Numbered from the stretch's first letter, positions 3,078 through 27,044 are shown. The stretch: 51,169 nt of DNA from Chthoniobacterales bacterium (GCA_014879575.1 JACSRU010000124.1:1-51169); one strand, 5' to 3'. A program made the numbers and translations. The notes: generated from the letters alone by a model not told the origin.

Positions 3078-3083
3078 CAAGAA

Positions 3084-3515: not shown

Positions 3516-3530
3516 TTAATCACGAAATCC

Positions 3531-11752: not shown

Positions 11753-14484
11753 GCACATACCCAAGAGGATCAGAATGGCGATTGTGGGACCTACATATCC
11801 ACACACCGGCTTCCTACAATTTCAATGGTCAGCGATTCGTCACCATGACGGCGGCGGAAAAAAGTGCAGCGATCTCGCAAATCATCACCAATATCAACGA
11901 AAGCGAGGTAGCCGCCTACGCCATCAACGACTACTGGACTTTCGACGGGTATCTCGCACTTAGAAGTGCGCATGAAGCCGGTGAAACCATTCAGAAGACA
12001 CTATTCCCGGCTATCGAGCTTCGCATCGAATCGGCATCCGAGGCTCGACTGAACATCCATGTGCTCTTCTCCGATAAACTGACCGTTCAACAGCTTCAGG
12101 ACTTCAAAAGTCACCTAAAGCTAAAGGTGATAGACCGCTCACTTTCCGACGAAGCAATTCGGGATTTCGCCGGAGAACTCGATGGAGCAAAAGCCAAAAT
12201 CCATGGGGCGCCGGACGGATACAAAGACGACCCAGCCGAACTCTTTCTGCTTGGCGCCAAGACGGCAGAAATAACCCAAGCCTCACTCAAGGCTGCTCTC
12301 GAGTGTATTCCCAGAGACCGCCGGTTGGTGATGGTTCCATACGACTCCTATGGCGGCATGGATGAGATCGAATGGGAAAGCCAGCCCGCAGAAAATCTAT
12401 ATTTCATGCGTCTCGTAGACGTCGTGGAGACTCGAAAGCAAAAAAACATCGATTTGTTTGCCTGCCGGAAGACGGAGGCTAACAAAGCGTTTATCGAAAA
12501 CTTCCAAAAAACGATTGGTGGCCGAGCCAAACCCTGCGTCTCCGGCAGCGACGGCCACTCAATCGCTGCTTTTAAAGATTGGCGTGAGGAGACAAAGACC
12601 CGGAAAACATGGATTAAGGCGGACCCAACATTCGAAGGTCTGAGGCAGATTCTCTTTGAACCCACGGCACGAGTCCGTGTGCAAGAGACGAGCCCCAGTT
12701 TGGACTACACAAAGCCATATCTGAGTTCGATTTCCATCGCACAGGAATTCTCCCCTTTTCCCAGCGACCAAAGCTACGAAAACCCTCGCTTTGGCCAAAA
12801 TCCAAAACTCGAATTGAATAGCGATCTCGCCTGCGTGATCGGGGGGCGAGGGACTGGAAAAAGCTGCTTGGTGGACTACCACGGCAAGGCATTCGGCACG
12901 GCGTCGAAATCCTCGTCCTACACTCCCAGCGAACACTTCGTCGTTGTCTTCAACAAAGACAGCACAAGCACTTCGACGCACCATGCAAAAGAGGGGGCCG
13001 AACTCCCCTTCGTTTACATCTCGCAAAATGAGGTAAAAGCAAAGGTTACGGCGGGCACGGTGGGCGACGAGATCAAGCAAATGCTCGGCGTCCGAGGCCT
13101 CTCCTTCGATAGAGATGTCGACTCTAAAATTCGAGACATCCTCTCCGAGGTCGAGAAACTCAAATCATGGTTCAAACAAACAGATGAAAAGGGCGAGGTG
13201 ATTTACCTTCGTCCAAAAATCGAAGATCAGATCACCCGATACAAAAGCCTGCTCGACTCCATCACAACGGAGCAGAACAAGGAAAAGCTGGAACGCTTCA
13301 CACTCAATGTCTCACGAGCAGCTGGAAACAGGGAGAAGGTTGCTCGCATGAACGAACTGAAAGAAGAGCTTACAAAGTTCAAAACTACATTTGACCCGAA
13401 GGCGTACGGTATCGACAAAACAATTCCGCCATTGGACGTTAAGCGCCAACTGGACGTCATCGACCACCTCGTGGGAAGCGCGACCAAAGACATCACTGCT
13501 TGCGAGGAAGACAATGCAAAGATTCGAGCCGACTTCTCCCGTGTTTATACTGGCGACCTCTCGGGGCTTTTGCAAAACGCCGAGGCATACCGCAGCGCCA
13601 TCGAGAAGCTGAAGTCGACCCTCACTACCATTCAGGCGAAGCAGGTAGAACTGGACGCCGCGTTGGGAAAAAAGGCGACCATCTCAACATTGATCGCAGC
13701 CGAAATAACGAGGCAAAAAGAAGCTATCGATGCCCGATGGCAGGTCATTCAGCAAGGGCAGGCCGATTGGACGCCGGAGCAAAAAGAGCTGATGAAGCGA
13801 ATTCTTGCGGATCGAAAAATCAACCTCGAAGGCCGTATCATTTTCGATCAGGCACGATTCCTCGAAAAGCTGAAGGAGGTTCTTAATCTCAGATCGTTTC
13901 GGACAACTTCTGAAAAAACCACGAACGAACGCATCAAAGAGTCCTTCAAGATAACCGACGCGACATCGTTTCTAGAATATATGTCGGAACGATTGAGCCA
14001 AGCTGAGGACGCGGAATATGTCTCTGGTGACATCGCATCCCTGTTCTACGACGTCGCACAACGCTCAACATTTCTCCGAGTCGAACCCGTGATTTCGTAT
14101 GGGGGACGTCCTCTCGAACGTTTGTCAGTTGGACAGAAGGGCACGGTTTATCTGTGTTTAAAACTGGCAACTCAGGCGTTCACTCAACCGCTGATCTTCG
14201 ACCAACCGGAAGACGACCTCGACAACGAGTTTATCATCGAGGAATTGGTCGAGATTTTCCGAGGTATCAAACAGTTCCGTCAGGTCATACTTGTGACCCA
14301 CAACGCCAACCTCGTTGTCAACGCGGACGCGGAGCAGGTCATCGTCGCAGAGAACGACAGCGGAGTGCTCAAATACAGCTCCGGAAGTCTTGAGGCGGAG
14401 GTAACGAACAAGGCAGTTCGCCGAATTTTGGAAGGCGGTGACGACGCCTTCCGGAAACGTGAACTTCGCTACAACCTCAAATAG
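11749..14484 (+). CDS. TrlF-like protein: PHP phosphoesterase domain fused to an SMC/ABC-type ATPase
   Basis: 911 aa. The N-terminal PHP domain has WDLHIHTPAS (His16, His18) and later SGSDGHS, both metal-ligand motifs of PHP phosphoesterases. An ATPase follows, with Walker A GGRGTGKSC (about 364-372) and a long charged coiled-coil middle (about 460-700). Its ABC-like signature is LSVGQKGT (about 790), with Walker B LIFDQPEDDLDNE and switch ILVTHNANL near 847. This arrangement is that of the TrlF family, found in defence islands and often beside restriction genes. Likely activity is ATP-driven DNA or RNA sensing linked to a nuclease or phosphoesterase; this is inferred. It is coupled to the cyclase-like gene by ATGA at 11749. 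Confidence 0.85.
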   Translation: MSTYPRGSEWRLWDLHIHTPASYNFNGQRFVTMTAAEKSAAISQIITNINESEVAAYAINDYWTFDGYLALRSAHEAGETIQKTLFPAIELRIESASEARLNIHVLFSDKLTVQQLQDFKSHLKLKVIDRSLSDEAIRDFAGELDGAKAKIHGAPDGYKDDPAELFLLGAKTAEITQASLKAALECIPRDRRLVMVPYDSYGGMDEIEWESQPAENLYFMRLVDVVETRKQKNIDLFACRKTEANKAFIENFQKTIGGRAKPCVSGSDGHSIAAFKDWREETKTRKTWIKADPTFEGLRQILFEPTARVRVQETSPSLDYTKPYLSSISIAQEFSPFPSDQSYENPRFGQNPKLELNSDLACVIGGRGTGKSCLVDYHGKAFGTASKSSSYTPSEHFVVVFNKDSTSTSTHHAKEGAELPFVYISQNEVKAKVTAGTVGDEIKQMLGVRGLSFDRDVDSKIRDILSEVEKLKSWFKQTDEKGEVIYLRPKIEDQITRYKSLLDSITTEQNKEKLERFTLNVSRAAGNREKVARMNELKEELTKFKTTFDPKAYGIDKTIPPLDVKRQLDVIDHLVGSATKDITACEEDNAKIRADFSRVYTGDLSGLLQNAEAYRSAIEKLKSTLTTIQAKQVELDAALGKKATISTLIAAEITRQKEAIDARWQVIQQGQADWTPEQKELMKRILADRKINLEGRIIFDQARFLEKLKEVLNLRSFRTTSEKTTNERIKESFKITDATSFLEYMSERLSQAEDAEYVSGDIASLFYDVAQRSTFLRVEPVISYGGRPLERLSVGQKGTVYLCLKLATQAFTQPLIFDQPEDDLDNEFIIEELVEIFRGIKQFRQVILVTHNANLVVNADAEQVIVAENDSGVLKYSSGSLEAEVTNKAVRRILEGGDDAFRKRELRYNLK

Positions 14485-14496
14485 GAAGACCATATC

Positions 14497-14550
14497 GTGA
14501 ACACGGACACAGCCGAAAAGGACTTCGAAGGTAAGGACGCCGAAGTATGA
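14497..14550 (+). CDS. 17-codon mini-ORF resembling an HsdR N-terminus
   Basis: The mini-ORF starts with GTG, preceded by AGGAAG (14483-14488), and encodes VNTDTAEKDFEGKDAEV. Its TGA overlaps the ATG of the next gene (ATGA at 14547-14550). The peptide resembles the start of the hsdR product downstream (MRTSDTTEKGLETLI). It is therefore either a relic of an earlier hsdR 5' end left when the next gene was inserted, or a leader that now couples translation from the TrlF-like gene to the 275-aa gene. It is far shorter than normal gene-finding limits. Confidence 0.45.
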   Translation: MNTDTAEKDFEGKDAEV

Positions 14551-15374
14551 AAAAGGTTAAGTATCTTCCCAGTTCCCTGGATGCAGTAGAACACCTTCGA
14601 TACGACGTAGACGCGATGAGCATCAAGTTCTACACGTTGCCTGACGCTCCGACCGGAATCTTTCATCCTAAATATTCAGAAAAATGTTACACCTTCGCTG
14701 CCGGAATTTCCGGCGACGGCGCAAACGACTATCTAGTCCTCATGGCCTTGAGGCCCGATTGGGAAACTACGGGTGACGGCAAGGTGCTCGACATCGACAC
14801 TGCCGCATTCTGCTTCAAAGCAGATGACACCTCGGCTGCTCCAAGCGGGATTGCACTCTTTCATCAGTCCTTCGACGGGCGCACAACGCCACTAGTCGAC
14901 TATGAAGCCTTCACTCTCGAAGAAACAGTCAACGACCTTCACAGCAAACTCATGCCGGGTAGCCTGCCTCTTTCGGCATCGCCTCCCATCTACATCAACG
15001 CGATGGCTCACAGCATTGCAAAGTTCAATGAACTGCTTAATCCTGAAATTTCGGTTTGGAAGGATTCCTTTTCAAAGCCAGACGAAACCTTCGATGCACT
15101 GTGGGCCTACTGTTCCGACAATGGCAGAGTAATTCCTAAAGACTGGAAAAGACTCTACGAGATGCTTGCCAACAAACGACAAAGCCCATCGGGAGGATGG
15201 GTCCCTTCATTGCCGCTAATCTTGGCGGCATGGGACACCGCTACCCCAATCGAAAAACAGATGCGTTTTAAGGAACATGTCGAATGGGCAGGCCACAATA
15301 GTCAAATTGATGAGATCGGACACTACCTTCGGTCCCTGTCCGAAGAAGATTGGTATCACTACGGCGAACTGTAA
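14547..15374 (+). CDS. Unknown 275-aa protein between trlF-like gene and hsdR
   Basis: A soluble protein with no signal or membrane segment. Its N-terminal half looks beta-rich (IKFYTLPDAPTGIF, CYTFAAGIS, DYLVLMALRPDW, and AFCFKADD with a following IALFHQSFDG). The C-terminal half is helical (FDALWAYCSDNGRVIPKDWKRLYEML). I do not recognise a family and see no catalytic motif. The start is fixed by the overlap with the mini-ORF stop, and the stop TAA lies one base before the hsdR start. Being inside the operon suggests a partner of the RM or TrlF-like proteins, perhaps an immunity or sensor protein; this is only context. Confidence 0.7.
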   Translation: MKKVKYLPSSLDAVEHLRYDVDAMSIKFYTLPDAPTGIFHPKYSEKCYTFAAGISGDGANDYLVLMALRPDWETTGDGKVLDIDTAAFCFKADDTSAAPSGIALFHQSFDGRTTPLVDYEAFTLEETVNDLHSKLMPGSLPLSASPPIYINAMAHSIAKFNELLNPEISVWKDSFSKPDETFDALWAYCSDNGRVIPKDWKRLYEMLANKRQSPSGGWVPSLPLILAAWDTATPIEKQMRFKEHVEWAGHNSQIDEIGHYLRSLSEEDWYHYGEL

Positions 15375-15375
15375 C

Positions 15376-18300
15376 ATGAGAACATCCGACACCACCGAGA
15401 AAGGCCTCGAAACTCTGATCATGAGCCACATGACCGGCACGAGCGGCCTTTCCTCGGGAACGCCGGGCACTGTGGCGGAAACCGCGCCCCTGACCAACGG
15501 CAGCGGCTGGTTTGCAGGCCAAGCCGCGTCGTATGATCGCGAGTTCGCGGTGGATGAAGAGCAACTCATTGCCTTCCTCCAGGCAACCCAACCGGAGGCG
15601 ACGGCCAAGCTCGGCATCGGCGACTACAAAGACAAAAAGAACATCACCCGCCAGAAATTCCTCGCCCGACTGCAAGGGGAGATTTCGAGGCGCGGCACGA
15701 TTGACGTGCTGCGGCACGGCATCAAGCACGGGGCATTGAGTTTTGATCTATTTTACGGCACGCCCTCGCCGGAGAACACCAAGGCGGTGCAGCGGCACGC
15801 GGCGAACCGGTTTAGCGTCACGCGCCAACTTGCCTACAGTCGCGAGGAGACCAAGCGGGCACTGGACCTGTGCGCGTTCATCAACGGGCTGCCGGTGATG
15901 ACCTTCGAATTGAAAAACAGCCTCACCAAACAGACGGTCGAGGATGCCATCGAGCAATACAAACGCGACCGCGACCCACGCGAGAAGCTCTTCGAGTTTG
16001 GCCGCTGCGTGGTGCATTTCGCGGTGGACGACGCAAAGGTCGCCATGTGCACGGCTCTCAAGGGCACGAAGGGCATGGCCAAGGAGTCGTGGTTCCTGCC
16101 ATTTGACCAAGGCTGGAACGACGGGGCCGGCAACCCGCCGAACCCGGACGGGCTGAAGACGGATTACCTGTGGAAACGCATCCTCACCCCGGAGGGACTC
16201 ACGGATATTCTGGAAAACTACGCGCAGATCGTGGAGGAGGAGAACCCCAAGACGGGGAAAAAGAAGCAGGTCCAAATTTTCCCGCGCTATCACCAACTCG
16301 ACGTGGTGCGGAAACTTCTCGCCGACGTGCGTGAGACCGGCGCAGGCCAACGTTACCTCATCCAGCATTCAGCGGGCAGCGGCAAGTCGAACTCCATCGC
16401 ACGGCTGGCCCATCAGCTCATCAGCGCACGGAAGGACGGCAAGGAAGTGTTCGACTCGATCATCGTCGTCACCGACCGGCGCATCCTCGATAAACAAATC
16501 CGCGAGACGATCAAGGGCTTTGCCCAGGTCGGCAGCATCATCGGCGCGGTGAAGGAGGGCGCGGGCGTGTCGAAGACGGAGCAGCTCTCGAAGTTCCTCA
16601 AGGACGGGAAGAAGATCATCATTTCCACGGTGCAAACCTTCCCCTTCGTGCTCGACAGCATCGGCGCGGAACATCGCGGCGGAAACTTCGCCATCATCAT
16701 CGACGAGGCGCACAGCAGCCAGGGCGGACGCACGGCGGCGGCCATCAGCGCGGCGCTGGGCGAGACCGCCGAATCCGAGGAGGAGACGAGCGAGGACAAA
16801 ATCAACCGCATCATCGGGCAACGGAAAATGCTGCCCAACGCCAGCTACTTCGCATTCACCGCCACACCGAAGAACAAGACGCTGGAAATGTTCGGCATCG
16901 CCTACCCGGAGGGAGGCGAGGTGAAACACCGGCCCTTTCACGGCTACACAATGAAACAGGCCATTCAGGAGGGTTTCATTCTCGATGTGCTGAAACGTTA
17001 CACGCCCGTGGACAGCTACTATCGGCTCGCCAAAACTGTCGAAGGTGACCCCGAGTATGACGTAAAGAAGGCCCGTAAAAAACTGCGCCTCTATGTCGAG
17101 AGCCATAGCAAGGCCATCCGCGACAAAGCGGAAATCATGGTGGACCATTTCCTCGAACAGGTCATCGGCCAAAACAAGATCGGCGGACAGGCGCGGGCGA
17201 TGGTCGTCACCGGCAGTATTCAACGGGCCATAGAGTATTGGGTGGCCTTCACTGCCTACCTCAAAGAAATCAAAAGCCCCTACCAGGCCATCGTCGCCTT
17301 TTCCGGTGAGCCGGAATACAAGGGCGAGAAGGTCAGCGAGGCGAAGCTGAACGGATTTTCGAGCAACGACATCGCGGACAAGATTCAGGAAGACCCGTAT
17401 CGATTTCTCATCTGTGCCGATAAATTCCAGACCGGCTACGACGAACCCCTGCTGCACACGATGTATGTGGACAAGGCGCTCAGCGGCATCAAAGCCGTTC
17501 AGACGCTCTCCCGCCTGAACCGGGCGCACCCGAAAAAACACGACGTGTTCGTCCTCGATTTTCAGAACGACACCGAGACCATCGAGAAATCCTTCGCCGA
17601 CTACTACCGCACCACGATCCTCAGCAAGGAAACGGACGCCAACAAACTCCACACCCTCAAGGATGAACTGGACGGGTATCAGGTCTATTCGCCGGAGCAG
17701 GTGAACGAATTCGTGAAGCTCTACCTCGACGGGCAAATTGTGGACAAGGTTCATCCCATCCTCGACGCCTGCGTGGCCGTCTATGTAAACGACCTGGACG
17801 AGGACAAGCAGGTGGATTTCAAGGGCAAGGCCAAAGCCTTCGCCCGCACCTATGACTTCCTCGCGACCATCCTGCCGTATGGCGTGCAGGAGTGGGAAAA
17901 ACTTTCGATCTTCCTGAATTTCCTCATCCCGAAGCTGCCCGCGCCCAAGGAGGAAGACCTTGCTAAAGGAATCCTCGAAGCCATCGACATGGATAGCTAC
18001 CGCGCCGAAAAAAAGGCGACGCTGGCCATCGCATTGCCGGATACCGACGCCGAGATCGAACCCGTGCCAACGTCCGGCGGCGGACGTAAGCCCGAACCCG
18101 AGTTGGACAAGCTCTCGAACATCATCAAGGCATTCAACGACCAGTTCGGCGGTCTGTTCAACGACCCTAACGCCGTGGAAAAGCGCATCATCGAAGTGAT
18201 CCCGCCCAAGGTGTCAGCCGACCCGGCCTATCAGAACGCCAGACAAAATTCCGACCGGCAGAACGCCCGTATCGAACACGACAAGGCGCTCAAACGCGTA

Positions 18301-18411
18301 ATCACGGCCATGTTCAAAGACGACGCGCAGCTCTTCAAACAATTCCAAGACAACGACTCCTTCCGGCGCTGGCTGACAGACACGATTTTCGGAATTACCT
18401 ACGAGGAATAA
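15376..18411 (+). CDS. hsdR: Type I restriction endonuclease subunit HsdR
   Basis: The start ATG at 15376 gives MRTSDTTEKGLETLI; reading back to 15277 would overlap the previous gene. The 1011-aa protein has the N-terminal HsdR nuclease fold with LDLCAFINGLPVMTFELKN (about 157-180; PD-(D/E)xK pattern D..ExK). The SF2 translocase follows: Walker A HSAGSGKSNS (about 331), DEAH box IIIDEAHSS (about 440), motif III FAFTATPK, and motif VI QTLSRLNRAHP (about 708-718). A helical C-terminal region that docks on HsdM completes it. It pumps DNA and cuts unmodified phage DNA at a distance. No frameshift or missing motif is seen, so the RM system appears functional. It is the last gene of the coupled operon. 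Confidence 0.96.
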   Translation: MRTSDTTEKGLETLIMSHMTGTSGLSSGTPGTVAETAPLTNGSGWFAGQAASYDREFAVDEEQLIAFLQATQPEATAKLGIGDYKDKKNITRQKFLARLQGEISRRGTIDVLRHGIKHGALSFDLFYGTPSPENTKAVQRHAANRFSVTRQLAYSREETKRALDLCAFINGLPVMTFELKNSLTKQTVEDAIEQYKRDRDPREKLFEFGRCVVHFAVDDAKVAMCTALKGTKGMAKESWFLPFDQGWNDGAGNPPNPDGLKTDYLWKRILTPEGLTDILENYAQIVEEENPKTGKKKQVQIFPRYHQLDVVRKLLADVRETGAGQRYLIQHSAGSGKSNSIARLAHQLISARKDGKEVFDSIIVVTDRRILDKQIRETIKGFAQVGSIIGAVKEGAGVSKTEQLSKFLKDGKKIIISTVQTFPFVLDSIGAEHRGGNFAIIIDEAHSSQGGRTAAAISAALGETAESEEETSEDKINRIIGQRKMLPNASYFAFTATPKNKTLEMFGIAYPEGGEVKHRPFHGYTMKQAIQEGFILDVLKRYTPVDSYYRLAKTVEGDPEYDVKKARKKLRLYVESHSKAIRDKAEIMVDHFLEQVIGQNKIGGQARAMVVTGSIQRAIEYWVAFTAYLKEIKSPYQAIVAFSGEPEYKGEKVSEAKLNGFSSNDIADKIQEDPYRFLICADKFQTGYDEPLLHTMYVDKALSGIKAVQTLSRLNRAHPKKHDVFVLDFQNDTETIEKSFADYYRTTILSKETDANKLHTLKDELDGYQVYSPEQVNEFVKLYLDGQIVDKVHPILDACVAVYVNDLDEDKQVDFKGKAKAFARTYDFLATILPYGVQEWEKLSIFLNFLIPKLPAPKEEDLAKGILEAIDMDSYRAEKKATLAIALPDTDAEIEPVPTSGGGRKPEPELDKLSNIIKAFNDQFGGLFNDPNAVEKRIIEVIPPKVSADPAYQNARQNSDRQNARIEHDKALKRVITAMFKDDAQLFKQFQDNDSFRRWLTDTIFGITYEE

Positions 18412-18468: not shown

Positions 18469-18816
18469 ATGAACAATACCGCGTTCGGTTCCTATCTCCG
18501 CCAGATTAGGGAGGAAAAAGACATCTCATTGAGAGAACTCGCCAAAAGGATTGGTGTATCCGGAGCATTCCTGTCCGACATCGAACTCGGTCGCCGATTC
18601 CCATCGGCAGACAAAATCGAACTCCTTGCCAAAGAAATCGGTATCCCCGTGGAGGATTTGCAAAAATACGATTTCCGCGACGAGGCGGAGGAAATAAGAA
18701 AAATGATGTTCTCCGACCCCCAAGCCGGAATGGCCTTCAGAACCCTCAAGACCAAAATCCAAGGCGGTACTTCGATCGATAAAATTCGAGAACACCTCGA
18801 CGAAGACATCAAATGA
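18469..18816 (+). CDS. XRE-family helix-turn-helix regulator (115 aa)
   Basis: Residues about 6-62 form a Cro/C1-type helix-turn-helix (FGSYLRQIREEKDISLRELAKRIGVSGAFLSDIELGRRFPS, with SGAFLSDIELG as recognition helix region). The C-terminal 45 residues are charged and helical. The stop overlaps the start of the ImmA/IrrE gene (ATGA at 18813). In such pairs the metallopeptidase typically cleaves or inactivates the repressor after a stress signal. It is placed between the RM operon and the CBASS genes, so it probably controls its own operon and perhaps the phospholipase gene downstream (see the palindrome). Confidence 0.9.
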   Translation: MNNTAFGSYLRQIREEKDISLRELAKRIGVSGAFLSDIELGRRFPSADKIELLAKEIGIPVEDLQKYDFRDEAEEIRKMMFSDPQAGMAFRTLKTKIQGGTSIDKIREHLDEDIK

Positions 18817-19517
18817 AGGAGTTCCACACCAAGGACGGACCGTATCCCCTCCGGCTGCTCTACGAGACACGGGAGATCGATGACATCTGCTTGGACGCGC
18901 TGAAGCAGTCCAAGCTCCTCCCAAGCGAGCCCGAGCCAATTAAGATCGACCTCTTCCTCGAAAAATACTTCGAGGTCCCGTTGATCTACGAGGACTTGGG
19001 GGAGGGAATCATGGGATCGACGGTGTTCAACTCAAAGGGAGCCGTAACCGGATTCACCATCGCACCATGGATCGAGGAAGAAGGAACCGCCGCCGCTGAA
19101 CGTCGGGTGAGATCAACATTGGCGCACGAAGGGGGACACGGCCTCCTCCACCCGAAACTTTTCATCGCTGACCAAACCGCCGACCTTTTCAACCACTCTT
19201 CCGGGAACCACTGCCCCCGGAATTTTTTATGTCGCAGCACCGACATTTCCCCAAGTCCCGGTGCTACCCCAAAATACGATGGGCGGTGGTGGGAATGGCA
19301 GGCGAACCGAGCCATCGGCGGCCTCCTCCTTCCGCGTCCGACCGTAAGAAAGCTAGTCACCCCATACCTAGAGGAGTCCACCTTCGGACAGCGTCTCAGG
19401 GAAACCCAAAGATCCAAAGTCGAAAAAGAGGTCGCCGAGACCTTTGACGTGAACCCAGTCGTCGCCCGAATCCGGCTGGAAGAAATGTTTCCAACGGAAA
19501 AGCACCCTTCCTTGTAA
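18813..19517 (+). CDS. ImmA/IrrE-family zinc metallopeptidase (234 aa)
   Basis: STLAHEGGHGLLH contains the HExxH zinc site (His105, Glu106, His109), in the position usual for ImmA/IrrE proteins. A candidate third ligand lies downstream in the WWEWQANRAIGGLLLP segment (Glu then Ala-Asn as in ExxAN). The C-terminal helices (ETFDVNPVVARIRLEE) match the family's ending. Relatives cut the repressor encoded next to them, lifting repression. Its ATG overlaps the XRE stop, so the two are translated together. Between HEGGH and the WWEW segment lies a roughly 45-residue insert with three Cys (NHCPRNFLCRSTDI), not standard in short ImmA proteins. Confidence 0.88.
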   Translation: MKEFHTKDGPYPLRLLYETREIDDICLDALKQSKLLPSEPEPIKIDLFLEKYFEVPLIYEDLGEGIMGSTVFNSKGAVTGFTIAPWIEEEGTAAAERRVRSTLAHEGGHGLLHPKLFIADQTADLFNHSSGNHCPRNFLCRSTDISPSPGATPKYDGRWWEWQANRAIGGLLLPRPTVRKLVTPYLEESTFGQRLRETQRSKVEKEVAETFDVNPVVARIRLEEMFPTEKHPSL

Positions 19518-19518
19518 A

Positions 19519-19561
19519 ATATCGTTGACTGTAAGCTGTCGAAGCTTACAGTCAACGATAT
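19519..19561. promoter_or_regulatory. Perfect palindrome, 19-bp arms, covering the capV start codon
   Basis: ATATCGTTGACTGTAAGCT (19519-19537) and its exact reverse complement (19543-19561) flank a 5-base spacer GTCGA. The right arm contains the first two bases of the patatin start codon at 19560, and no ribosome-binding site lies between arm and start. As DNA it is a strong candidate operator; as RNA it would hide the start codon. TGTAAAAT (19513-19520), an extended -10-like element, touches its left edge, so transcription could begin within the left arm and leave the message nearly leaderless. Confidence 0.75.
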
Positions 19562-20504
19562 GCAAGGCAACCGATTTCAAATTCTATCTCTGGACGGCGG
19601 TGGGCTGAAGGGGCTCTTTACCGCGTCCTTTCTGGCCCATTGGGAAAAAGAACGAGGGACAAGGGTCATCGACCATTTCGACCTGATCTCTGGCACCAGC
19701 ACTGGCGGAATCATCGCCATCGGCCTCGGCCTCGGCTTCTCAGCCGAACAGATTAAAGACCTCTACCTCAACAAGGCGGACCAAATCTTTCCGCCTAAGC
19801 ACTTCGCCAACGCCAAACACTGGCTGGCGGTCAAGCATTCGGGTGCCGGTCTGCGGGCGGCACTCCAGGAGCTGCTCGGCGAACGAAAGTTCGGCGAAAG
19901 TGAAAAACGACTCCTCATTCCCGCCTACGACCCTGCCTTCCGCGGGGTCCACATCTTCAAAACGTCGCACCACAAACGCCTGCAGACCGACTACAAGCAA
20001 AGCGCCGTTCATGTCGCGATGGCAACCAGTGCCGCCCCGACCTACCTTCCCCCCGAGGTCACCGAGTCCGGCCTGCAACTCCTTGACGGCGGCGTCTGGG
20101 CGAACAATCCCATCATGATTGCGGTGGCCGAAGCGTTGGGATACCTCGAAAAACCCCAGAGCGAGATCACCGCGCTCCGCATAGGCACCACCGAGGAAGT
20201 CATCTCTCTAAAGGATCTCCAGACCATGGGAGGAAAGTTGCAAATGGCGGCTCCAGTCATCGACTTCATGATGAGAGGCCAGTCGCAGTCGGCTTCTGGG
20301 ATGGTGCAACACCTTCTCGGAAAAGACCGCTTTTTCGAGGTGAACCCCAAAACCGCCCCGGGAGATTTCCACCTCGATAAACTCAGCAAGGAACTCCTCG
20401 CTATGGGCGAGGCCGAATGGCGTCACGCCTCCTCCGAACTCTTTGACCGGGGATTCTTCGATCATCAGGCGGCTCCCTTCGAGCCCTGTCACAAACTCAA
20501 CTAA
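19560..20504 (+). CDS. capV: CBASS effector CapV-like patatin phospholipase (314 aa)
   Basis: The patatin fold is clear. The oxyanion motif DGGGLKG (12-18), nucleophile elbow GTSTGG with Ser47, and the catalytic Asp in LLDGGVW (about residue 175) are all present. CapV enzymes are switched on by a cyclic dinucleotide made by the CD-NTase and degrade the inner membrane, killing the infected cell. It directly precedes a CD-NTase gene on the same strand (29-bp gap), which is the usual CBASS order. The start at 19560 is the only ATG before the DGGGLKG motif, but it lies in a perfect palindrome without a Shine-Dalgarno sequence, so expression may be specially controlled. The catalytic set is complete. 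Confidence 0.93.
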   Translation: MQGNRFQILSLDGGGLKGLFTASFLAHWEKERGTRVIDHFDLISGTSTGGIIAIGLGLGFSAEQIKDLYLNKADQIFPPKHFANAKHWLAVKHSGAGLRAALQELLGERKFGESEKRLLIPAYDPAFRGVHIFKTSHHKRLQTDYKQSAVHVAMATSAAPTYLPPEVTESGLQLLDGGVWANNPIMIAVAEALGYLEKPQSEITALRIGTTEEVISLKDLQTMGGKLQMAAPVIDFMMRGQSQSASGMVQHLLGKDRFFEVNPKTAPGDFHLDKLSKELLAMGEAEWRHASSELFDRGFFDHQAAPFEPCHKLN

Positions 20505-20533
20505 TTAACCCAACCAACAAAACCCAAACGACC

Positions 20534-21724
20534 ATGAAGACGAAAGATCAGATCATCGAGGCCCTCGTGGCCGCTTTGGAAATTCCACCCAGTGCCTACG
20601 ACAAGGCCCACGACCGATACAAGGACTTGGGCGACTGGTTCTGCGAAGGTTCGCTGAAAGCCAACAAGCCAAGAATTTACGCCCAGGGGTCCTTCCGCCT
20701 CGGGACTGTCATCCGCCCCCTTCACGATGGCGAATCCTACGACCTGGATGTCGGCTGCCGTCTTGAGGCTGGCATCAGCAAGCACACCCATACTCAGGAG
20801 AATTTGAAGACGCTCGTCGGTGACGAACTCGAAGCCTACCGGAAGGCCCGGCAAATCAAGAAGGAGCTCGAAGAAAAGCACCGTTGCTGGTGCCTCGAAT
20901 ATGCGGACGAACTCCGGTTCTCGGAGGACATCGTTCCCTCCATTCCCGAGGAAATGACCAAGCAGGCCTCACTCGCTGAGGCGATGGTCAAACATGGCCT
21001 CGCTCGTGGGCTCGCCGAAAACGTGTCTCACCACTCCGGGAATATCACCGACAATCGTCAGGCCAACTACCGCTACATCGATCCCGACTGGCGAATCTCC
21101 AACTCAGAAGGCTATGCCAAGTGGTTTGAATCCCGCATGGAAATCGCAACCGGGCTCGTGGAGAAAGTCGCCATGATGGCGAAGCAGGCCAAAGTGGAAA
21201 AACTCCCCGCTTGGAAATGGAAAACGCCACTTCAAAAAGTCATCCAACTTTTGAAGCGGCACCGGGATTCGATGTTCGCCAAGAACCCCGACTCCAAACC
21301 CATTTCCATCATCATCACGACACTGGCGGCTGCTGCCTACCGGGGTGAGGACAACACCACCTCAGCGCTGGAGCGCATCCTTGCCGACATGGATCGCTAC
21401 ATCCTTCCGACAATCCCCCGTGTCCCCAATCCAGTGAACCCAAATGAAGACTTCGCGGACAAATGGCACGAGCCGAAATACGCCCACCTCAACTTGGAAG
21501 GAAACTTCCACGGTTGGCTCAAGCAGGCCCGAGCAGACTTCCAGAACACCGAAAAACTCAACACAGAAGAACTGATACAAAAGTTCACCGTTCAAAAGTT
21601 TGGGCTGCGTATTCCACAGGACTTGAGAGAACCGTTTTTTGATTTACGCGGCCAAGCGCAGGCCCTCGGCACGATCAAGATCGAGACGATGGGAGAGGAA
21701 TTTCGCGAGGTCACAGGTATTTGA
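20534..21724 (+). CDS. CBASS CD-NTase (cGAS/DncV-like), C-terminus replaced by IS sequence
   Basis: The nucleotidyltransferase signature is IYAQGSFRLGTVIRP (Gly52-Ser53), with YDLDVG giving metal ligands Asp70 and Asp72 and SEDIVPSIPE (about 130-139) the third acidic strand. WRISNSEGYAKWFESR and the helical C-lobe follow. It would make the cyclic oligonucleotide that activates CapV. Residues 1-363 are native. From 21622 the frame runs into the insertion sequence, and the last 33 residues (LREPF...VTGI) are IS-encoded. The original ending, 32 residues closing in KPARPWCM, lies at 23484-23583. The catalytic core is intact, but the tail, which in type II CBASS is the conjugation point, is lost. 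Activity is therefore uncertain. Confidence 0.9.
   Translation: MKTKDQIIEALVAALEIPPSAYDKAHDRYKDLGDWFCEGSLKANKPRIYAQGSFRLGTVIRPLHDGESYDLDVGCRLEAGISKHTHTQENLKTLVGDELEAYRKARQIKKELEEKHRCWCLEYADELRFSEDIVPSIPEEMTKQASLAEAMVKHGLARGLAENVSHHSGNITDNRQANYRYIDPDWRISNSEGYAKWFESRMEIATGLVEKVAMMAKQAKVEKLPAWKWKTPLQKVIQLLKRHRDSMFAKNPDSKPISIIITTLAAAAYRGEDNTTSALERILADMDRYILPTIPRVPNPVNPNEDFADKWHEPKYAHLNLEGNFHGWLKQARADFQNTEKLNTEELIQKFTVQKFGLRIPQDLREPFFDLRGQAQALGTIKIETMGEEFREVTGI
21615..21621. repeat. Target-site duplication, left copy (CACAGGA)
   Basis: CACAGGA stands directly left of the insertion sequence and again directly right of it at 23477-23483. Because the next base is C on both sides, an 8-bp duplication (CACAGGAC) is equally possible, with the element shifted by one base. 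Confidence 0.93.
21622..21638 (+). repeat. IS terminal inverted repeat, left
   Basis: CTTGAGAGAACCGTTTT, exact reverse complement of 23460-23476. It starts immediately after the duplicated CACAGGA, and identity stops at the 18th base. Confidence 0.95.
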
Positions 21725-23047
21725 GCCATCGAAGAGAAATTCGGGGAGACAATGACGCAGGGCCATGGCAACGATTTGTTCGGAAGGGGGAATTCCCGGT
21801 CGGATGGTGCGGATCCAAGAGCCGAAGTGACTCCAAACGAGTCGCGGATGAAGGACGGAAAGGATCTGGAGCAGACCTTGAGCGATGACGCCGGTTTGGA
21901 GATGACAATGGTAGGCGCGGATTTTGCGTCGGACCTGCTGGCGATAGAGATCGCTTTTGTGGTGGAGATGCTGGTTGCCGGAACGCCGGGAAATGGGCGA
22001 CATGGCCTTCATCCAAAAATGATACCGATAAGTGCCGACGGTATGGACGGCTTGTTTGAAGGAGACTTCGATTTTGAAGCGCGCGCCATAAAGGGAGATG
22101 ATCTCCAGCGGGTGGAGGGAGAGGTCGGTGGAGAGAAAAACCCTGCAACCTCGGTGCGGATGGATGACGGCGACGAAGCGTACGAGGCAACCGACGGGAC
22201 GCCAGAGCAGGTCAATGCTGCGATAGGCGAGATCCACCCCGTTTTCCCCATAGACAGGACTGGGTGCCTTGGTGAAAGCCTCAGTGTCCTTAAATAAGGT
22301 GTTGAGGCGAATCTTGGAACCGTAGCAGCGCGGGCGCCCACGTCGGCGCTTGTCTGGTGAAGGGGCCGGTTCATAAGCCACGGCACTGGATTTGAGGGCG
22401 GTGACAAGGTGGTTGCCGCCGCGCAGGAGCGGGAGAATGATTTTTGCGGTGGCGTAGTAGGCGTCGCCAACCAGAATGCAGGGCCGTGCCACACCGAGTT
22501 CCTTGAAAAGGAGGATGAGTTTGTCCATGAGGGTGCGCTTGTCGCGGTTGGTAAAGACGACTCCCTCATGGATGCGGCAAGCCAGAGGCAGGGCGAAGAA
22601 GCTCTCTGCCGCCTTAACCACGACAGCGAGGGCCTGGCAGGAGTGCCCGAAGATGTATTCGGGCTTGGAGTTATTTTGCGACTCCTGGTGGAGCTTCTTG
22701 ACCGCCGGCATTTTGCGTCCGGCTTTGGGAGCTTTGATGCCGTCGGCAAGCAGGACGATGCGTCCGTTGACGGTGAGCAGAAGGGGGTCCAAGACGCGGA
22801 GAACCAGACACGTCCATAGGGAAGTGAGCCGGGAGAGGTCAACGGCCGGACTGTGGAAGAAATCCAAGATCCTGTCGTAGAAGGAGTGCTGGAGTCCGAG
22901 TGCCCGCACGAAACTTGTGACGCCCCGCAAATCCTCGCGCACGCAGAAGGCCGCGAGCGCGGCGGAAAACCAGAGAAATGTGCGGGTGCGGCCAAACGCG
23001 GGGCGAAGGGAACAAACGAGGTTCCACCAGGTGATCCAAAGGGTCAT
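21644..23047 (-). CDS. DDE-type IS transposase (467 aa)
   Basis: The start at 23047 (MTLWITWWNLVCSL) is chosen because the longer reading to 23251 would run through the divergent DUF6788 gene. Candidate catalytic acids are the first Asp in VLLADGIKAPKAGRK, the second in ILVGDAYYATAKII, and the Glu in LYGARFKIEVSFKQA, with a Y-x2-R-x3-E arrangement as in IS4/IS701-type enzymes. A basic stretch (PDKRRRGRPRCYGSK) lies between the second and third. The stop is 22 bp inside the left end of the element, so the frame is complete and unbroken. It is antisense to the IS-encoded tail of the CD-NTase. Confidence 0.9.
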   Translation of the reverse strand: MTLWITWWNLVCSLRPAFGRTRTFLWFSAALAAFCVREDLRGVTSFVRALGLQHSFYDRILDFFHSPAVDLSRLTSLWTCLVLRVLDPLLLTVNGRIVLLADGIKAPKAGRKMPAVKKLHQESQNNSKPEYIFGHSCQALAVVVKAAESFFALPLACRIHEGVVFTNRDKRTLMDKLILLFKELGVARPCILVGDAYYATAKIILPLLRGGNHLVTALKSSAVAYEPAPSPDKRRRGRPRCYGSKIRLNTLFKDTEAFTKAPSPVYGENGVDLAYRSIDLLWRPVGCLVRFVAVIHPHRGCRVFLSTDLSLHPLEIISLYGARFKIEVSFKQAVHTVGTYRYHFWMKAMSPISRRSGNQHLHHKSDLYRQQVRRKIRAYHCHLQTGVIAQGLLQILSVLHPRLVWSHFGSWIRTIRPGIPPSEQIVAMALRHCLPEFLFDGSNTCDLAKFLSHRLDLDRAEGLRLAA

Positions 23048-23084
23048 GAGAAGAATTTTTGAATTGTGAAATATTTTTGTTGAC

Positions 23085-23106
23085 AGGTAGCATTTATATG
23101 CTACCT
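23085..23106. promoter_or_regulatory. 9-bp palindrome between the divergent IS genes
   Basis: AGGTAGCAT (23085-23093), loop TTAT, and ATGCTACCT (23098-23106) form a perfect palindrome. TTGACA (23080-23085) at its left edge is a consensus -35 box reading toward the DUF6788 gene, although a good -10 at normal spacing is not clear. It may be the operator shared by both IS promoters. Confidence 0.5.
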
Positions 23107-23132
23107 TATTAGCGCGAAAAAGCAACAAAATC

Positions 23133-23447
23133 ATGTCAAAAAAAATCACCCAACTGCAGGCACGCATCGAACGGATCAAACAAGAGCTGATGGTGCTCGG
23201 CCCCATGCGCCCGGGAAGCCTCAGCCGCCAATACCGGGACCCGGAAACCAAAGGGCGGGCGTTCCACCAGATCAGCTATACGCACAAGGGGCGCGGACGC
23301 TCGGAATATGTCCGCCCGGAAAACCTCGCGCAGATCCGCCGCGAAACGGCCAACTTCAGGCGATTCCGCAAGCTGACAGAGCAGTGGGTGGACTTATCGC
23401 TGAAGGCGTCGCAACTACGCGCAAAAAATGGCGAGACTCCGAATTGA
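23133..23447 (+). CDS. IS-borne DUF6788-type small protein (104 aa)
   Basis: The sequence opens with a basic coiled coil (MSKKITQLQARIERIKQELM), then the segment MRPGSLSRQYRDPETKGRAFHQIS followed by SEYVRPENLAQIRRETANF and a second helix. This matches small proteins (DUF6788) repeatedly seen beside transposases in Verrucomicrobia and Planctomycetes. The function is unknown; DNA binding or transposase regulation is plausible because it is short, basic and divergently transcribed from the transposase. It ends 29 bp inside the right IS end. Its transcript could run on into the CBASS E2 gene. Confidence 0.75.
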   Translation: MSKKITQLQARIERIKQELMVLGPMRPGSLSRQYRDPETKGRAFHQISYTHKGRGRSEYVRPENLAQIRRETANFRRFRKLTEQWVDLSLKASQLRAKNGETPN

Positions 23448-23459
23448 TGCGTGCCGGAG

Positions 23460-23476
23460 AAAACGGTTCTCTCAAG
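23460..23476 (-). repeat. IS terminal inverted repeat, right
   Basis: AAAACGGTTCTCTCAAG, exact reverse complement of the left end at 21622-21638. It is followed at once by the second CACAGGA copy. Confidence 0.95.
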
Positions 23477-23483
23477 CACAGGA
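23477..23483. repeat. Target-site duplication, right copy (CACAGGA)
   Basis: Second copy of the 7-bp target sequence. It continues into the detached 3' end of the CD-NTase gene in the original reading frame (CAG-GAC-GAA). Confidence 0.93.
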
Positions 23484-23583
23484 CGAAATCGCCAAAATTC
23501 TCCCGCTCCTATCGTCCAAACCCGCAGACTACCAGAACATCCAGATCATTACTGAAAAACCAGCTCGTCCATGGTGTATGTGA
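23484..23583 (+). pseudogene. Detached 3' end of the CD-NTase gene (32 codons plus stop)
   Basis: Joining 20534-21621 to 23484-23583 keeps the frame: ...IPQD-EIAKILPLLSSKPADYQ... through IITEKPARPWCM and TGA, 395 residues in all. The TGA (23581-23583) overlaps the ATG of the E2 gene (TGATG), so the two genes were translationally coupled before insertion. A chance ATG at 23428, inside the DUF6788 gene, opens a 51-codon frame that could still translate this tail and re-initiate at the E2 gene. Confidence 0.92.
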
Positions 23584-24236
23584 TGCCCTATGCAGTCGCC
23601 ATTCCGGGGCTGGACGAGTTCCTTAACGATCAGCCATTCATCTCGATTCAGCCATCGAACGGAAATCCCCTTCTCTTGGAAGGGGATTTTCAGTTTTGCG
23701 CCGAGCATGAGGGACACCCCCGAATCAACGACACCTACAATCTTCAAATCTCCATTCCCCGAGACTTCCCCCGTCGAACTCCAACGGTCACCGAGATAGG
23801 CGGCAGAATTCCCCGCGTGGATGATTTTCACGTAAATGGCAACGGAACCCTGTGCCTCGGCTCACGAATTCGACTCATGGCTCGGCTACAGGCAGAACCG
23901 ACCATCCAAGGGTTCAGCAAAAACTGCATCGTTCCCTACCTGTATGCGATGAGCCTAAAGCTCACACACGGCCAGGATTTTATCTTTGGTGAGCTCCGTC
24001 ATGGCGTCCACGGTGAACTCGACGACTACAAAGAACTCCTCGGCCTCAAGCGTAATGACCGGGTCGTTCCAGCCCTCCTTTGCCTGCTCAAAAAAAAGCG
24101 CCTCGCCAATAAAATGCCCTGTCCTTGCGGCTGCAAAAAGAGACTGGGAAAGTGCGATCTCAACGTCACCGTCAGAAAGTTTCGATCCATTCTACCAAAA
24201 GCCTGGCTCCGCGAAGTCGTCACCGGAAAACGGTGA
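23583..24236 (+). CDS. E2-like (ubiquitin-conjugating fold) CBASS protein (217 aa)
   Basis: The start at 23583 is fixed by the TGATG overlap with the original CD-NTase stop. The core reads NLQISIPRDFPRRTPTV, then FHVNGNGTLCLGS with catalytic Cys91 and His83 upstream, the pattern of bacterial E2 proteins (YxLxIxxPxxYPxxxP, then H...GxLCL). Type II-short CBASS operons carry an E2 without E1 or JAB and link it to the CD-NTase C-terminus. The C-terminal third adds a Cys cluster, MPCPCGCKKRLGKC (about 180-193), like a small zinc-binding motif. With the CD-NTase tail removed by the IS its normal partner is missing. Confidence 0.85.
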   Translation: MPYAVAIPGLDEFLNDQPFISIQPSNGNPLLLEGDFQFCAEHEGHPRINDTYNLQISIPRDFPRRTPTVTEIGGRIPRVDDFHVNGNGTLCLGSRIRLMARLQAEPTIQGFSKNCIVPYLYAMSLKLTHGQDFIFGELRHGVHGELDDYKELLGLKRNDRVVPALLCLLKKKRLANKMPCPCGCKKRLGKCDLNVTVRKFRSILPKAWLREVVTGKR

Positions 24237-24353
24237 CGAGTACATTCTTGCGCTCACGCTAGCGAAGAATCCACGCTGCCCGGCAGATTTTGCAAATCAG
24301 ACGGGGCACGATTTGATGTTGAGGGGGAGGGAGAAGGCGGCGCGAATTTGAAC

Positions 24354-24365
24354 GGGCTTTCGCCC
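24354..24365. repeat. Short hairpin GGGC-TTTC-GCCC
   Basis: A 4-bp stem, extended by two A-T pairs after one mismatch, lies between the E2 and AAA genes. Its TTTC loop matches the hairpins at 4279-4326 and 25352-25383. The rest of 24237-24404 shows nothing else. Confidence 0.3.
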
Positions 24366-24404
24366 ATTCGTTTTCCGGTTCCGACAATTGTTTGGCCGAG
24401 GCGA

Positions 24405-25379
24405 ATGGAACAAGAAGAAACAGATCTGATCGAATTCGAATTGCGCCAAGAGCCAGAGCTTGTCCGCCAGAAGGAAAAGTCTCAGCCGTTTTTGTTCGCG
24501 CACCAGCGAGACGCATTTCGTGAGTTGCAGCGGACGGCGTTGGCCTTTTCGCAAACCAAATGGTGGGATTTGTCGATCCGACCGCGGTTTGATCGCCTGC
24601 TCGTCGCCCCGACAGGGACCGGGAAAACTCATCTCGTTCAAGCCCTGGCCGAATTCCTCAAATGGCCGTTCTTGTCGATTTCGGCCTCAAATTGGGTTCT
24701 TTTCGGCTGTCCGGATCGGGGAGGGAAACAAACATGGCCTCTCATTGCGTCCTGGTTGGCAGGCGGAAACTCGTTCCGGCTTCTGTTTCTCGACGAACTC
24801 GACAAGGTTTCTGGCGACGACACTTGGTCGCGTCACCTTCGGACCGAGCTCTACAATCTCCTAGATCGCACGATTCCGCCGGGGTTGCAATTTGATGGAA
24901 GCGGCGATGGGGAAGAGCACGTCATTGACGCCCCCAAAATAAGGCGGACCAAATCCCTCTACACACTGCGATTTCGGACCCTGATCCTTGGAGGCGCAGC
25001 ATTTCAGGACGCTTGGGAAGAGCGGAGAGTCAAACGCGCAGGATTTCACTTGGTTGACGATCCTGGCGAACCGCCTACCCATGATGACCTGACTTCGCAC
25101 TTGCCGAGAGAATTGCTCAATCGGTTTGGGCCGCTTGTCGTGATGCGCCCGCTTGCCGAATCCGACTACGAGAAACTGCTTGCCGAGGCTGTTCGGTGCA
25201 TTCCTGACGGTCTACGAGAGAACTTTCTGAGGATTGGGCGAAAGGCTGCCCCTGCAGCCTGCCGGGATGGAAAGGGAGCGCGTTTTATTGAAGAGGTCCT
25301 GACAAATGCGTTGATAGATACGCTTCCGCGAAAGCTTCAGGAAAAGAGGCAAAAGTCGGTCCGCCTTTCGGCGGGCTGA
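24405..25379 (+). CDS. AAA+ ATPase, ClpX-like core (324 aa)
   Basis: The ATG at 24405 (MEQEETDLIEFELRQE) is preferred over a TTG at 24348 that lacks a ribosome site. LLVAPTGTGKTHLVQALAEFL is Walker A, about 65-85 residues in. LLFLDELDKVSGD is Walker B, and SHLPRELLNRFGPLVVMRPL looks like the ClpX/HslU sensor region (ELLNRF). The family gives no definite role: it may be an unfoldase or a helicase-type motor. It follows the CBASS E2 gene by 168 bp on the same strand and may belong to the same island rather than to CBASS itself. The stop lies inside a strong hairpin. Confidence 0.8.
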   Translation: MEQEETDLIEFELRQEPELVRQKEKSQPFLFAHQRDAFRELQRTALAFSQTKWWDLSIRPRFDRLLVAPTGTGKTHLVQALAEFLKWPFLSISASNWVLFGCPDRGGKQTWPLIASWLAGGNSFRLLFLDELDKVSGDDTWSRHLRTELYNLLDRTIPPGLQFDGSGDGEEHVIDAPKIRRTKSLYTLRFRTLILGGAAFQDAWEERRVKRAGFHLVDDPGEPPTHDDLTSHLPRELLNRFGPLVVMRPLAESDYEKLLAEAVRCIPDGLRENFLRIGRKAAPAACRDGKGARFIEEVLTNALIDTLPRKLQEKRQKSVRLSAG

Positions 25380-25383
25380 CTTT
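25352..25383 (+). terminator. 14-bp hairpin over the end of the AAA gene
   Basis: AAAGTCGGTCCGCC-TTTC-GGCGGGCTGACTTT pairs along 14 positions with two G-U pairs. The stop TGA (25377-25379) lies in the right arm. Only three T residues follow, so it is a weak intrinsic or Rho-assisted terminator. Confidence 0.55.
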
Positions 25384-25414
25384 CCCATGCAGCAACTCAG
25401 GGCGTGGGGGTGAA

Positions 25415-25639
25415 ATCAATGCCCTCGATGTCATCAGCCTCGCCATCGTTGGACTGGCAATCGCGCCTTTCGTCATTCGGGCGGTAGCCCTCGCGATCTG
25501 GCAGGTCGTTGAAACCCCTTATCGAATCGTGATGATCGTGATTTACGGGCTGGCGTATGTCCTCATCTCAATCTGGGAGGCGGTAGTCTGGCTCGCGAAA
25601 TTCCTCAAGAGGATTTGGATTTGGCTCTTCCGCCGGTAG
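25415..25639 (+). pseudogene. Hydrophobic ORF lacking a usual start codon
   Basis: An open frame ending at TAG 25637-25639 reads INALDVISLAIVGLAIAP, then further segments such as IVMIVIYGLAYVLISIWEAVV and ends WIWLFRR. That is two or three clear membrane helices with a basic end. No ATG, GTG or TTG precedes the first helix in frame. An 8-codon ATG frame (25387-25413) lies just upstream, one base out of register. It is either a decayed or frameshifted small membrane-protein gene, or one using a rare start. The remaining bases to 25757 show nothing. Confidence 0.35.
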
Positions 25640-25757
25640 TCCCGGCATTTCTTCAAATTCATTTTTATCGGAACTCGATTTGGCTCGCGCCGACCAATAG
25701 AGGCCTGCAATTCGCCACGAAAATCGGCGCGAGTCTTCGTCCACAAAATTTCTTCAC

Positions 25758-26246
25758 ATGACAAAATTTTCGCCCCTCCCGCTCCGTGTCGTTATTAATC
25801 GTGTTGGCGAGCCGACGCCAGCCCAGTACAGCGCGTCACGAACTCCGGTGGATTCTGCCGAGGCCGCGTATCGGTTTTGGCTGGATGTCGTCGCGTCCGC
25901 GCCAGATTTCGAGCCAGAAAAGGAGCATCTTGTCGCCATCCTCCTTGATACCAAGCTTCGACCGATGGCATTTCATCTCGTATCAACGGGATCGCTTAAC
26001 GAGACCATAGCCCATCCACGGGAGATTTTTCGGCCCGCGATCATTCTCGCGGCATACGGCGTCATCTTGGCCCACAATCATCCCTCTGGAGATTCCGCTC
26101 CCAGCCAAGCCGATCATAGGATGACCCGCCAAATGTCCGAAGCGGCGCGGCTCTTGCAGATACAGTTGCTGGACCACGTGGTTACCGGCGACGCGGAAGG
26201 AGGACGGCAGCCCTATTTCAGTTTCCGGGAGGCAAGGTGCTTGTGA
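25758..26246 (+). CDS. RadC-type JAB/MPN domain protein (162 aa)
   Basis: The hallmark ILAHNHPSGDSAPSQAD (HxH followed by Asp at +11 from the first His) is the JAMM/MPN metal site as found in RadC. HLVAILLDTKLRPMAFHLVSTGSLNET before it, and HPREIFRPAI, are also typical. The protein is short, lacking the helix-hairpin-helix half of housekeeping RadC, like the JAB-only RadC proteins common on plasmids and genomic islands. Their function is unsettled (accessory to mobile DNA or anti-restriction has been suggested). It supports the island reading. It is not of the Cap3 type that removes CD-NTase conjugates. Confidence 0.88.
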   Translation: MTKFSPLPLRVVINRVGEPTPAQYSASRTPVDSAEAAYRFWLDVVASAPDFEPEKEHLVAILLDTKLRPMAFHLVSTGSLNETIAHPREIFRPAIILAAYGVILAHNHPSGDSAPSQADHRMTRQMSEAARLLQIQLLDHVVTGDAEGGRQPYFSFREARCL

Positions 26247-26284
26247 GGGTGCATGAGGCCCCGCCGCGGTGCGCTCCTGTCTCG

Positions 26285-26509
26285 ATGAAACCCGCTCGGA
26301 GGATGAGGGTCTGTCGAAAACAATCCAAGCGTCAGCGGCTCATCGCCGAACTTGCCTCGATTCAGCGGGTGGGGGAAGACAGGCCAAGTTGGTTCAGCAA
26401 GTCCGACTATGACCGGCTGGCGCGGGAATTTGCCGCGAAATCAGCGGAATTGGTCGCCCTCCAAATCGCAGCATACCGGCGCCGGCTGGAGGGGAAGAAA
26501 ACTCTTTAG
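26285..26509 (+). CDS. Small basic helical protein (74 aa), unknown
   Basis: The start at 26285 (MKPARRMRVCRKQSKRQRL) is preferred over 26237, which would overlap the JAB gene. The protein is Arg/Lys-rich, with two predicted helices (RLIAELASIQR and DYDRLAREFAAKSAELVALQIAAYRRRLE). No family is recognised. It is the last gene before the tRNA and could be a DNA-binding accessory of the island. Chance ORF is possible, though the amphipathic pattern argues for coding. Confidence 0.45.
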   Translation: MKPARRMRVCRKQSKRQRLIAELASIQRVGEDRPSWFSKSDYDRLAREFAAKSAELVALQIAAYRRRLEGKKTL

Positions 26510-26529
26510 CATACCTTTTTTAGCATACC
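26470..26529. repeat. Three copies of AGCATACC near the tRNA 3' end
   Basis: AGCATACC occurs at 26470-26477, 26508-26515 and 26522-26529. The last two sit in 10-bp identical blocks (TAGCATACCT), 14 bp apart. They lie 58-117 bp from the tRNA CCA end, where integrase arm sites of islands often lie. The first copy is inside the small gene. Confidence 0.45.
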
Positions 26530-26559
26530 TCGGCTTTTGCAATTCCTTCACTCATCCGC

Positions 26560-26582
26560 AAACCCTGATAAACACAGGGTTT
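26560..26582 (-). terminator. 8-bp hairpin just downstream of tRNA-Pro
   Basis: AAACCCTG (26560-26567) and CAGGGTTT (26575-26582) pair around a 7-base loop. Read on the minus strand, it begins 4 bp after the tRNA CCA end and closes with TTT, as expected for a short tRNA terminator. Confidence 0.6.
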
Positions 26583-26586
26583 GAAG

Positions 26587-26663
26587 TGGTCGGGCCGGCG
26601 GGATTCGAACCCGCGGCCTCCTCGTCCCGAACGAGGCGCTCTACCAAGCTGAGCCACGGCCCG
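26587..26663 (-). tRNA. tRNA-Pro (anticodon CGG)
   Basis: The 77-nt minus-strand sequence folds into a full cloverleaf: acceptor CGGGCCG/CGGCCCG, D arm GCTC/GAGC, anticodon stem CCTCG/CGAGG with loop TTCGGGA (anticodon CGG), and T arm GCGGG-TTCGAAT-CCCGC. The discriminator A and CCA are encoded. C1-G72 is a proline identity element. It reads codon CCG. Its 3' end faces the defence genes, so it is a natural integration site for an island occupying the left half of the window. No second copy of the tRNA end was found in the window. Confidence 0.97.
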
Positions 26664-27044
26664 ACAATGTTTTACAGAGGAGAATGTGTTCCATGAGATC
26701 CCGAGCGGCCTTGCAAAACCTCCATGGACGGCAGCTATTTTGAGCTGAAACGGCCAAATCTGCCACAGGGAAGTGTTACAGTGCAAGGGGCCTCAGGGCA
26801 CCTCATGGTATGGCGGCGACTATTGCCGGGGTTCATCACCGGGTCAAGTCTTTTGATTCCATGTAAACGGGAATCTCAAGAATTCCGCGTGCGGCAGCAA
26901 TGGGAGGGAAGGCACCGCTCGTGAGTTTTCTGGACATCAAAATCTGTGGGAGGTTTTAATGGTGCGGATGTTGGAAGGCCTTTTGATTGAGAAGTTGGAG
27001 AGTTGTTTTTCGAATGGGGCCCAAGGCAGGCAGGGAACTTTTTT
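26664..27044. other. 381-bp gap between tRNA-Pro and malQ
   Basis: This should hold the tRNA promoter (minus strand) and the malQ promoter (plus strand). A 66-aa plus-strand ORF at 26724-26924 has no coding character. I see no clear consensus promoter, repeat or hairpin. Confidence 0.5.

Follow-up and report, generated by a model that had tools for sequence, protein, structure and literature searches.

When an insertion sequence lands in a gene of a bacterial defence operon, does it destroy the encoded enzyme or does it remove one particular function from it? This question is raised by an interrupted CD-NTase (cyclase) gene of a CBASS operon in the window analysed here, a stretch of 51,169 nucleotides from a Chthoniobacterales bacterium (GCA_014879575.1 JACSRU010000124.1:1-51169). 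Insertions into costly defence genes are ordinary and common in kind; this case is unusually well documented, and it stands above routine in having a clean natural empty site and in that the replaced segment is an E2-associated tail, with the catalytic domain spared.

Analysis of the surrounding genes revealed an operon in the order CapH-like regulator, CapP-like peptidase, CapV-type phospholipase, cyclase and E2. The interrupted cyclase reading frame (20534..21724, + strand, 396 aa) consists of native residues 1-363 followed by 33 residues from the insertion sequence; it carries a PF21654 DncV-like nucleotidyltransferase domain, matches the PADLOC cyclase models (E 3e-118) and keeps the CD-NTase motifs GSF...DLD and EDIVP ahead of the insertion. 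Upstream lies an intact CapV-type patatin phospholipase effector (19560..20504, +; PF01734), which scored 258.8 bits with the CBASS phospholipase model NF041079, above its cut-off of 200, and downstream an intact E2-like protein of 217 aa (23583..24236, +; PADLOC E2 models, E 5.6e-80, 306 bits) with a catalytic-type Cys91 in HVNGNGTLCLG that is invariant in 25 sequences. The first two genes, encoding the CapH-like HTH regulator (18469..18816, +; PADLOC capH, E 4.9e-12) and the CapP-like peptidase with an HEGGH motif (18813..19517, +; PADLOC capP, E 8.8e-7), have the content of a CapH-CapP module, an HTH repressor and an HExxH metallopeptidase upstream of CBASS, with a predicted regulatory role. 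Since a Cap2 query found no match in the window to an E1 or a fused E1-E2, we consider the layout to be that of E2-only (type II-short) CBASS, a refinement of the preliminary description, which had named a CBASS CD-NTase, an identification supported by the PADLOC cyclase models and by the neighbouring genes for a CapV-type phospholipase and an E2. Because 33 element residues stand in place of the cyclase tail, the locus is an interrupted member of this group, of which the uninterrupted relatives are full members.

The interrupting sequence is an IS4/IS701-related DDE element of 1855 bp (21622..23476, no strand assigned), identified as an insertion sequence by its 17-bp inverted ends, a 7-bp duplication and a PF13546 DDE transposase. 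The left terminal inverted repeat, CTTGAGAGAACCGTTTT (21622..21638, +), and the right one (23460..23476, -) are complementary at 17 of 17 positions, and the target duplication CACAGGA lies at 21615..21621 (+, left copy) and 23477..23483 (+, right copy), with one copy only in the natural empty site of L012 described below. Joining 20534-21621 to 23484-23583 gave a reading frame of 395 codons whose product ends in IITEKPARPWCM and whose TGA overlaps the E2 ATG (TGA 23581-23583, ATG 23583-23585); the severed native 3' end (23484..23583, +) encodes a 32-residue tail ending in ARPWCM, then TGA. All coordinates of the preliminary description were correct, and the analysis bore out to the base its account of the element and its perfect ends and duplication, as well as its in-frame joint yielding a 395-residue CD-NTase, the exchange of the native 32-residue ending for 33 IS-encoded residues and the TGATG overlap. 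The gene is interrupted, as it had said, but its term "splits" was an overstatement because one reading frame still holds 363 of the 395 native codons, among them the entire catalytic core. On the best reading, a complete DDE insertion sequence entered the cyclase gene at codon 363 in a recent transposition that duplicated CACAGGA; the reading frames of the remaining operon genes are open.

A scan for empty sites, using one genome per species, found close relatives in three other Verrucomicrobiota genomes (loci L012, L013 and L014). All three are natural loci without any trace of the element and encode a 395-aa cyclase with the same tail and a TGATG or TAATG cyclase/E2 overlap. In L012 the joint, TTCCACAGGACGAAATCGCC, exactly matches the predicted uninterrupted joint, and identity to the window is 96.8% on both flanks of the insertion (2054 bp left, 3190 bp right), with mutual overlap of the aligned blocks confined to around the duplicated bases. 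These natural empty sites exclude chance as an explanation. Thus the search for uninterrupted relatives with the same joint, proposed in the preliminary description, succeeded, the 32-residue tail being present in L012-L014, and homologues of the rebuilt protein, checked for a failure to align across the joint, did align across it. The locus is a clean case of defence-gene decay at its first step, in which the uninterrupted state is known from a 96.8%-identical relative.

Comparison with these relatives also bears on age. The severed 99-bp tail is identical in the window and L012, although this tail is short and its identity alone is weak evidence of youth. With L013 and L014 used to polarise changes on the window branch, residues 1-362 of the cyclase proved to carry four synonymous changes and no nonsynonymous one, E2 carries two synonymous and one nonsynonymous, and the severed tail is unchanged; CapV, the cyclase core and E2 carry no inactivating changes. 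Together with the perfect ends and duplication and two intact element genes, the lack of amino-acid change in cyclase residues 1-362 supports the earlier suggestion of a young event, here understood as young relative to the split from L012, with no assignable date. No relative of the transposase was found in the genomes of L012-L014.

What the insertion replaced became apparent from comparison of cyclase C termini. All 25 cyclases with an adjacent stand-alone E2 (L003, L012-L030, L032, L034, L039, L040 and L042; all loci read) end in a [K/R]PW-like motif, exact in 23 and inexact in L025 (KPH) and L027 (PPW), followed by one to six variable residues to the C-terminal end. The motif occurs in none of the five relatives lacking an adjacent stand-alone E2 (L004, L031, L033, L035 and L041); in L041, a Cap2-type relative with a ThiF-type E1-E2 gene, the cyclase ends in KPQGFGGAE, unlike the [K/R]PW tails. 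P392 does not vary across 24 uninterrupted sequences and W393 reaches at least 90% conservation, which places the motif on a par with active-site positions. The penultimate Cys (WCM) was rejected as a general key residue, since the relatives share the PW-type motif and not the Cys. In AlphaFold models of the native and interrupted proteins the core is alike and the native tail (371-395) and replacement tail are both largely disordered; the interrupted protein retains the whole nucleotidyltransferase and helical core, with native helix 362-368 shortened and the pLDDT of block 361-370 reduced from 80 to 65. By comparison only, the [K/R]PW tail appears linked to E2 adjacency, and the evidence supports the view that the insertion exchanged the conserved E2-associated tail and left the catalytic part in place. 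The presence of this conserved motif beside a stand-alone E2 leads to the prediction that tail loss should mimic E2 loss.

Known systems offer partial parallels. The closest PDB folds to the interrupted-protein model were the cyclases of Serratia marcescens CdnG-E2 complexes (PDB 8yjy, 8hsb; Yan et al. 2024), which resemble the window in having a cyclase and then a stand-alone E2, with no E1 found in the window, but sequence identity is only 25%, and the window has a CapV phospholipase effector and a cyclase tail replaced by an insertion sequence. The Serratia E2 was not recovered when the E2 profile was searched against PDB sequences. The closest solved sequence was 9woo, a Vibrio-type cyclase ("cyclic GMP-AMP synthase") scoring 574 bits with the family profile, KPW tail included; it is uninterrupted, and its C-terminal sequence matches the Vibrio gigantis cyclase of L039, which precedes an E2 and has a SAVED protein as neighbouring effector, in contrast to CapV in the window. 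In E1-E2 (Cap2/Cap3) type II CBASS, for example in E. coli TW11681 and B. cereus, the conserved CD-NTase C terminus is likewise the point of action of the ubiquitin-like enzyme (PMC10097602, PMC11153139), although the usual last residue there is Gly or Ala and the tails are E1-activated, whereas the window system has no E1 and a native tail of [K/R]PW plus one to six residues. Conjugation in these E1-E2 systems takes place at the cyclase C terminus, and when its last residue is deleted or changed, conjugation is lost together with defence against some phages or with all defence (PMC10097602, PMC11153139); Bacillus cereus CBASS lost its immunity when the C-terminal alanine was missing (PMC11153139). 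Defence against certain phages survives C-terminal deletion in E1-E2 systems (PMC10097602, PMC10449767), and therefore tail loss need not equal complete loss.

We propose, with considerable confidence, that the recent insertion has left the cyclase core and removed the [K/R]PW tail, with E2 control lost and defence off or strongly impaired. Yan et al. (2024) reportedly found that an E2 of this kind processes the cyclase at its C terminus and poly-conjugates it. In the present system the partner E2 probably acts on the replaced tail and the defence system is probably crippled, the main consequence most likely being loss of E2-dependent control of the cyclase. Specifically, the chimeric protein would keep a folded nucleotidyltransferase core from which the conserved [K/R]PW tail is gone, E2 would lack a handle on the cyclase and be unable to process or conjugate it, and phage would then seldom, if ever, switch on CapV. 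Translation of E2 is probably poorer as well. Neither the window nor L012-L014 shows an evident ribosome-binding site ahead of E2, so normal translation of E2 is probably coupled to the cyclase stop that overlaps its start; ribosomes from the interrupted cyclase would no longer reach this stop, and normal translational coupling would be lost. The net effect in this lineage would be a defence that is off or strongly impaired.

Other accounts of the locus differ in how much function they leave. It is conceivable, though we judge it the lesser chance, that the system still works in part, with basal cyclase activity and CapV persisting and some phages restricted without E2 control, or with toxicity reduced. 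The freedom of CapV, the cyclase core and E2 from inactivating changes is consistent with partial function, as is the finding that loss of the C-terminal glycine in E1-E2 CBASS abolishes defence against T4 and not against P1 (PMC10449767), whereas the abolished immunity of B. cereus CBASS lacking its C-terminal alanine argues for a more complete loss (PMC11153139). At the opposite extreme, the chimeric cyclase may lack stability or activity, leaving the operon as a newly formed pseudogene system in which the tail plays no specific part, which we regard as rather unlikely. The chimeric protein could simply be unstable, and the shortened helix and lowered pLDDT at block 361-370 of the interrupted model would fit such an outcome; all nucleotidyltransferase motifs and residues 1-363 are nevertheless preserved, the two models agree elsewhere in the core, and the native tail is predicted to be disordered and thus not to be a core element.

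Three further possibilities carry little weight. The right end of the element contains an ATG from which a fortuitous 51-aa reading frame is predicted (23428..23583, +), which takes in the severed tail and stops at the TGA overlapping the start of E2, and one may speculate that it could rescue some E2 translation. Taken further, the cyclase could be naturally uncoupled from E2, its core still made and basally active, while a separate 51-residue peptide carries the severed [K/R]PW tail and sustains E2 translation; this is improbable, and if true the uncoupled cyclase would be a natural separation-of-function variant of E2-only CBASS and not a dead operon. A reversible or split switch, in which precise excision restores the gene or the 51-aa frame makes the severed tail, aiding E2 translation or acting in trans, is more improbable still. 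The frame is free of stops up to the native TGATG junction with E2, and upstream on the same strand is a DUF6788 gene accompanied by a candidate promoter, but precise excision by such elements is generally rare, a clear ribosome-binding site is missing at the start of the 51-aa frame, no relative was found to share this insertion and there is no sign of a recurrent or regulated arrangement. Finally, the fragmentation of the source genome into 178 contigs could invite the explanation that the insertion is an assembly or binning chimera, which we consider the least probable of all: misassembly would not be expected to produce a 7-bp duplication and perfect inverted ends at precisely the point where three relatives are uninterrupted, and repeat collapse is unlikely because the element is present in a single copy in the 3.6-Mb assembly.

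The element itself encodes two genes. The transposase (21644..23047, -; PF13546 DDE_5), 467 aa from the ATG at 23047 and extendable to a TTG at 23251, shows D/D/E-type motifs in translation (LADGIK, VGDAYY, IEVSFK). Assignment to IS701 was rejected since the score with the NCBIfam model NF049999 (IS701-like) was 163.5 bits, below the curated cut-off of 170, and we therefore call the element IS4/IS701-related only. Divergent from the transposase is a partner gene of 104 aa (23133..23447, +; PF20586, DUF6788), which may be an element-borne regulator. Such a partner is common to several IS4/IS701-related relatives, lying beside related elements in L008 and L044/L048 and partly in L036 and L049. 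Full-length transposase relatives with 55% identity were found on Caballeronia and Paraburkholderia plasmids (e.g. those of Paraburkholderia aromaticivorans), with similar ends of the form CT(T/C)GAGAG-x-x-CCG; in two of these plasmid relatives, L037 and L038, the element ends are CTCGAGAGTGCCG. Their direct repeats are TAAAGGTA (8 bp, L037) and TTCAGGGTTT (10 bp, L038), compared with 7 bp in the window, so that repeat length appears variable, from 7 to 10 bp. No relative of the transposase was found among the viral contigs searched, and diverged fragments of the element (76-84%) occur in two genomes of the same genus. Between the two genes, a tentative candidate promoter, TTGACA-N16-TACCTT with a TG extended -10 (23080..23107, +), is absent from the consensus promoter scan list and overlaps a palindrome, GGTAGCATTTATATGCTACC (window 23086-23105); it would tentatively read through the DUF6788 gene toward E2.

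The wider neighbourhood yielded several additional observations. The stretch common to the window (19569-26666) and L012 (4036-9271) extends from capV to the end of a tRNA-Pro gene (26587-26663, -) and includes an AAA ATPase gene and a RadC-like JAB gene, with differing DNA beyond both sides; its appearance is that of a defence cassette lodged next to a tRNA gene, and a search for att-type repeats of the tRNA-Pro 3' end, intended to define an integrative island, found none of at least 12 bases. Window and L012 are 94.1% identical in capV (19560-20504) and 98.7-98.8% identical in the cyclase body and E2 (20534-24236), a gap that suggests recombination within the operon. Between the capP-like gene and capV lies a perfect palindrome with 19-bp arms, ATATCGTTGACTGTAAGCT and AGCTTACAGTCAACGATAT (window 19519-19561), a probable CapH operator, of which L014 has a shorter version and L012, whose capH-capP stretch does not align, has none. 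Directly upstream of the CBASS operon the window carries a dense defence region (5204-18411) encoding HsdM, a GmrSD-type nuclease, HsdS, a PHP/SMC-like ATPase and HsdR. In L012 a different ubiquitin-like gene set (1588-3993), identified by eye only and including a ThiF/E1-like reading frame (2429-3610), seemingly lies directly upstream of capV.
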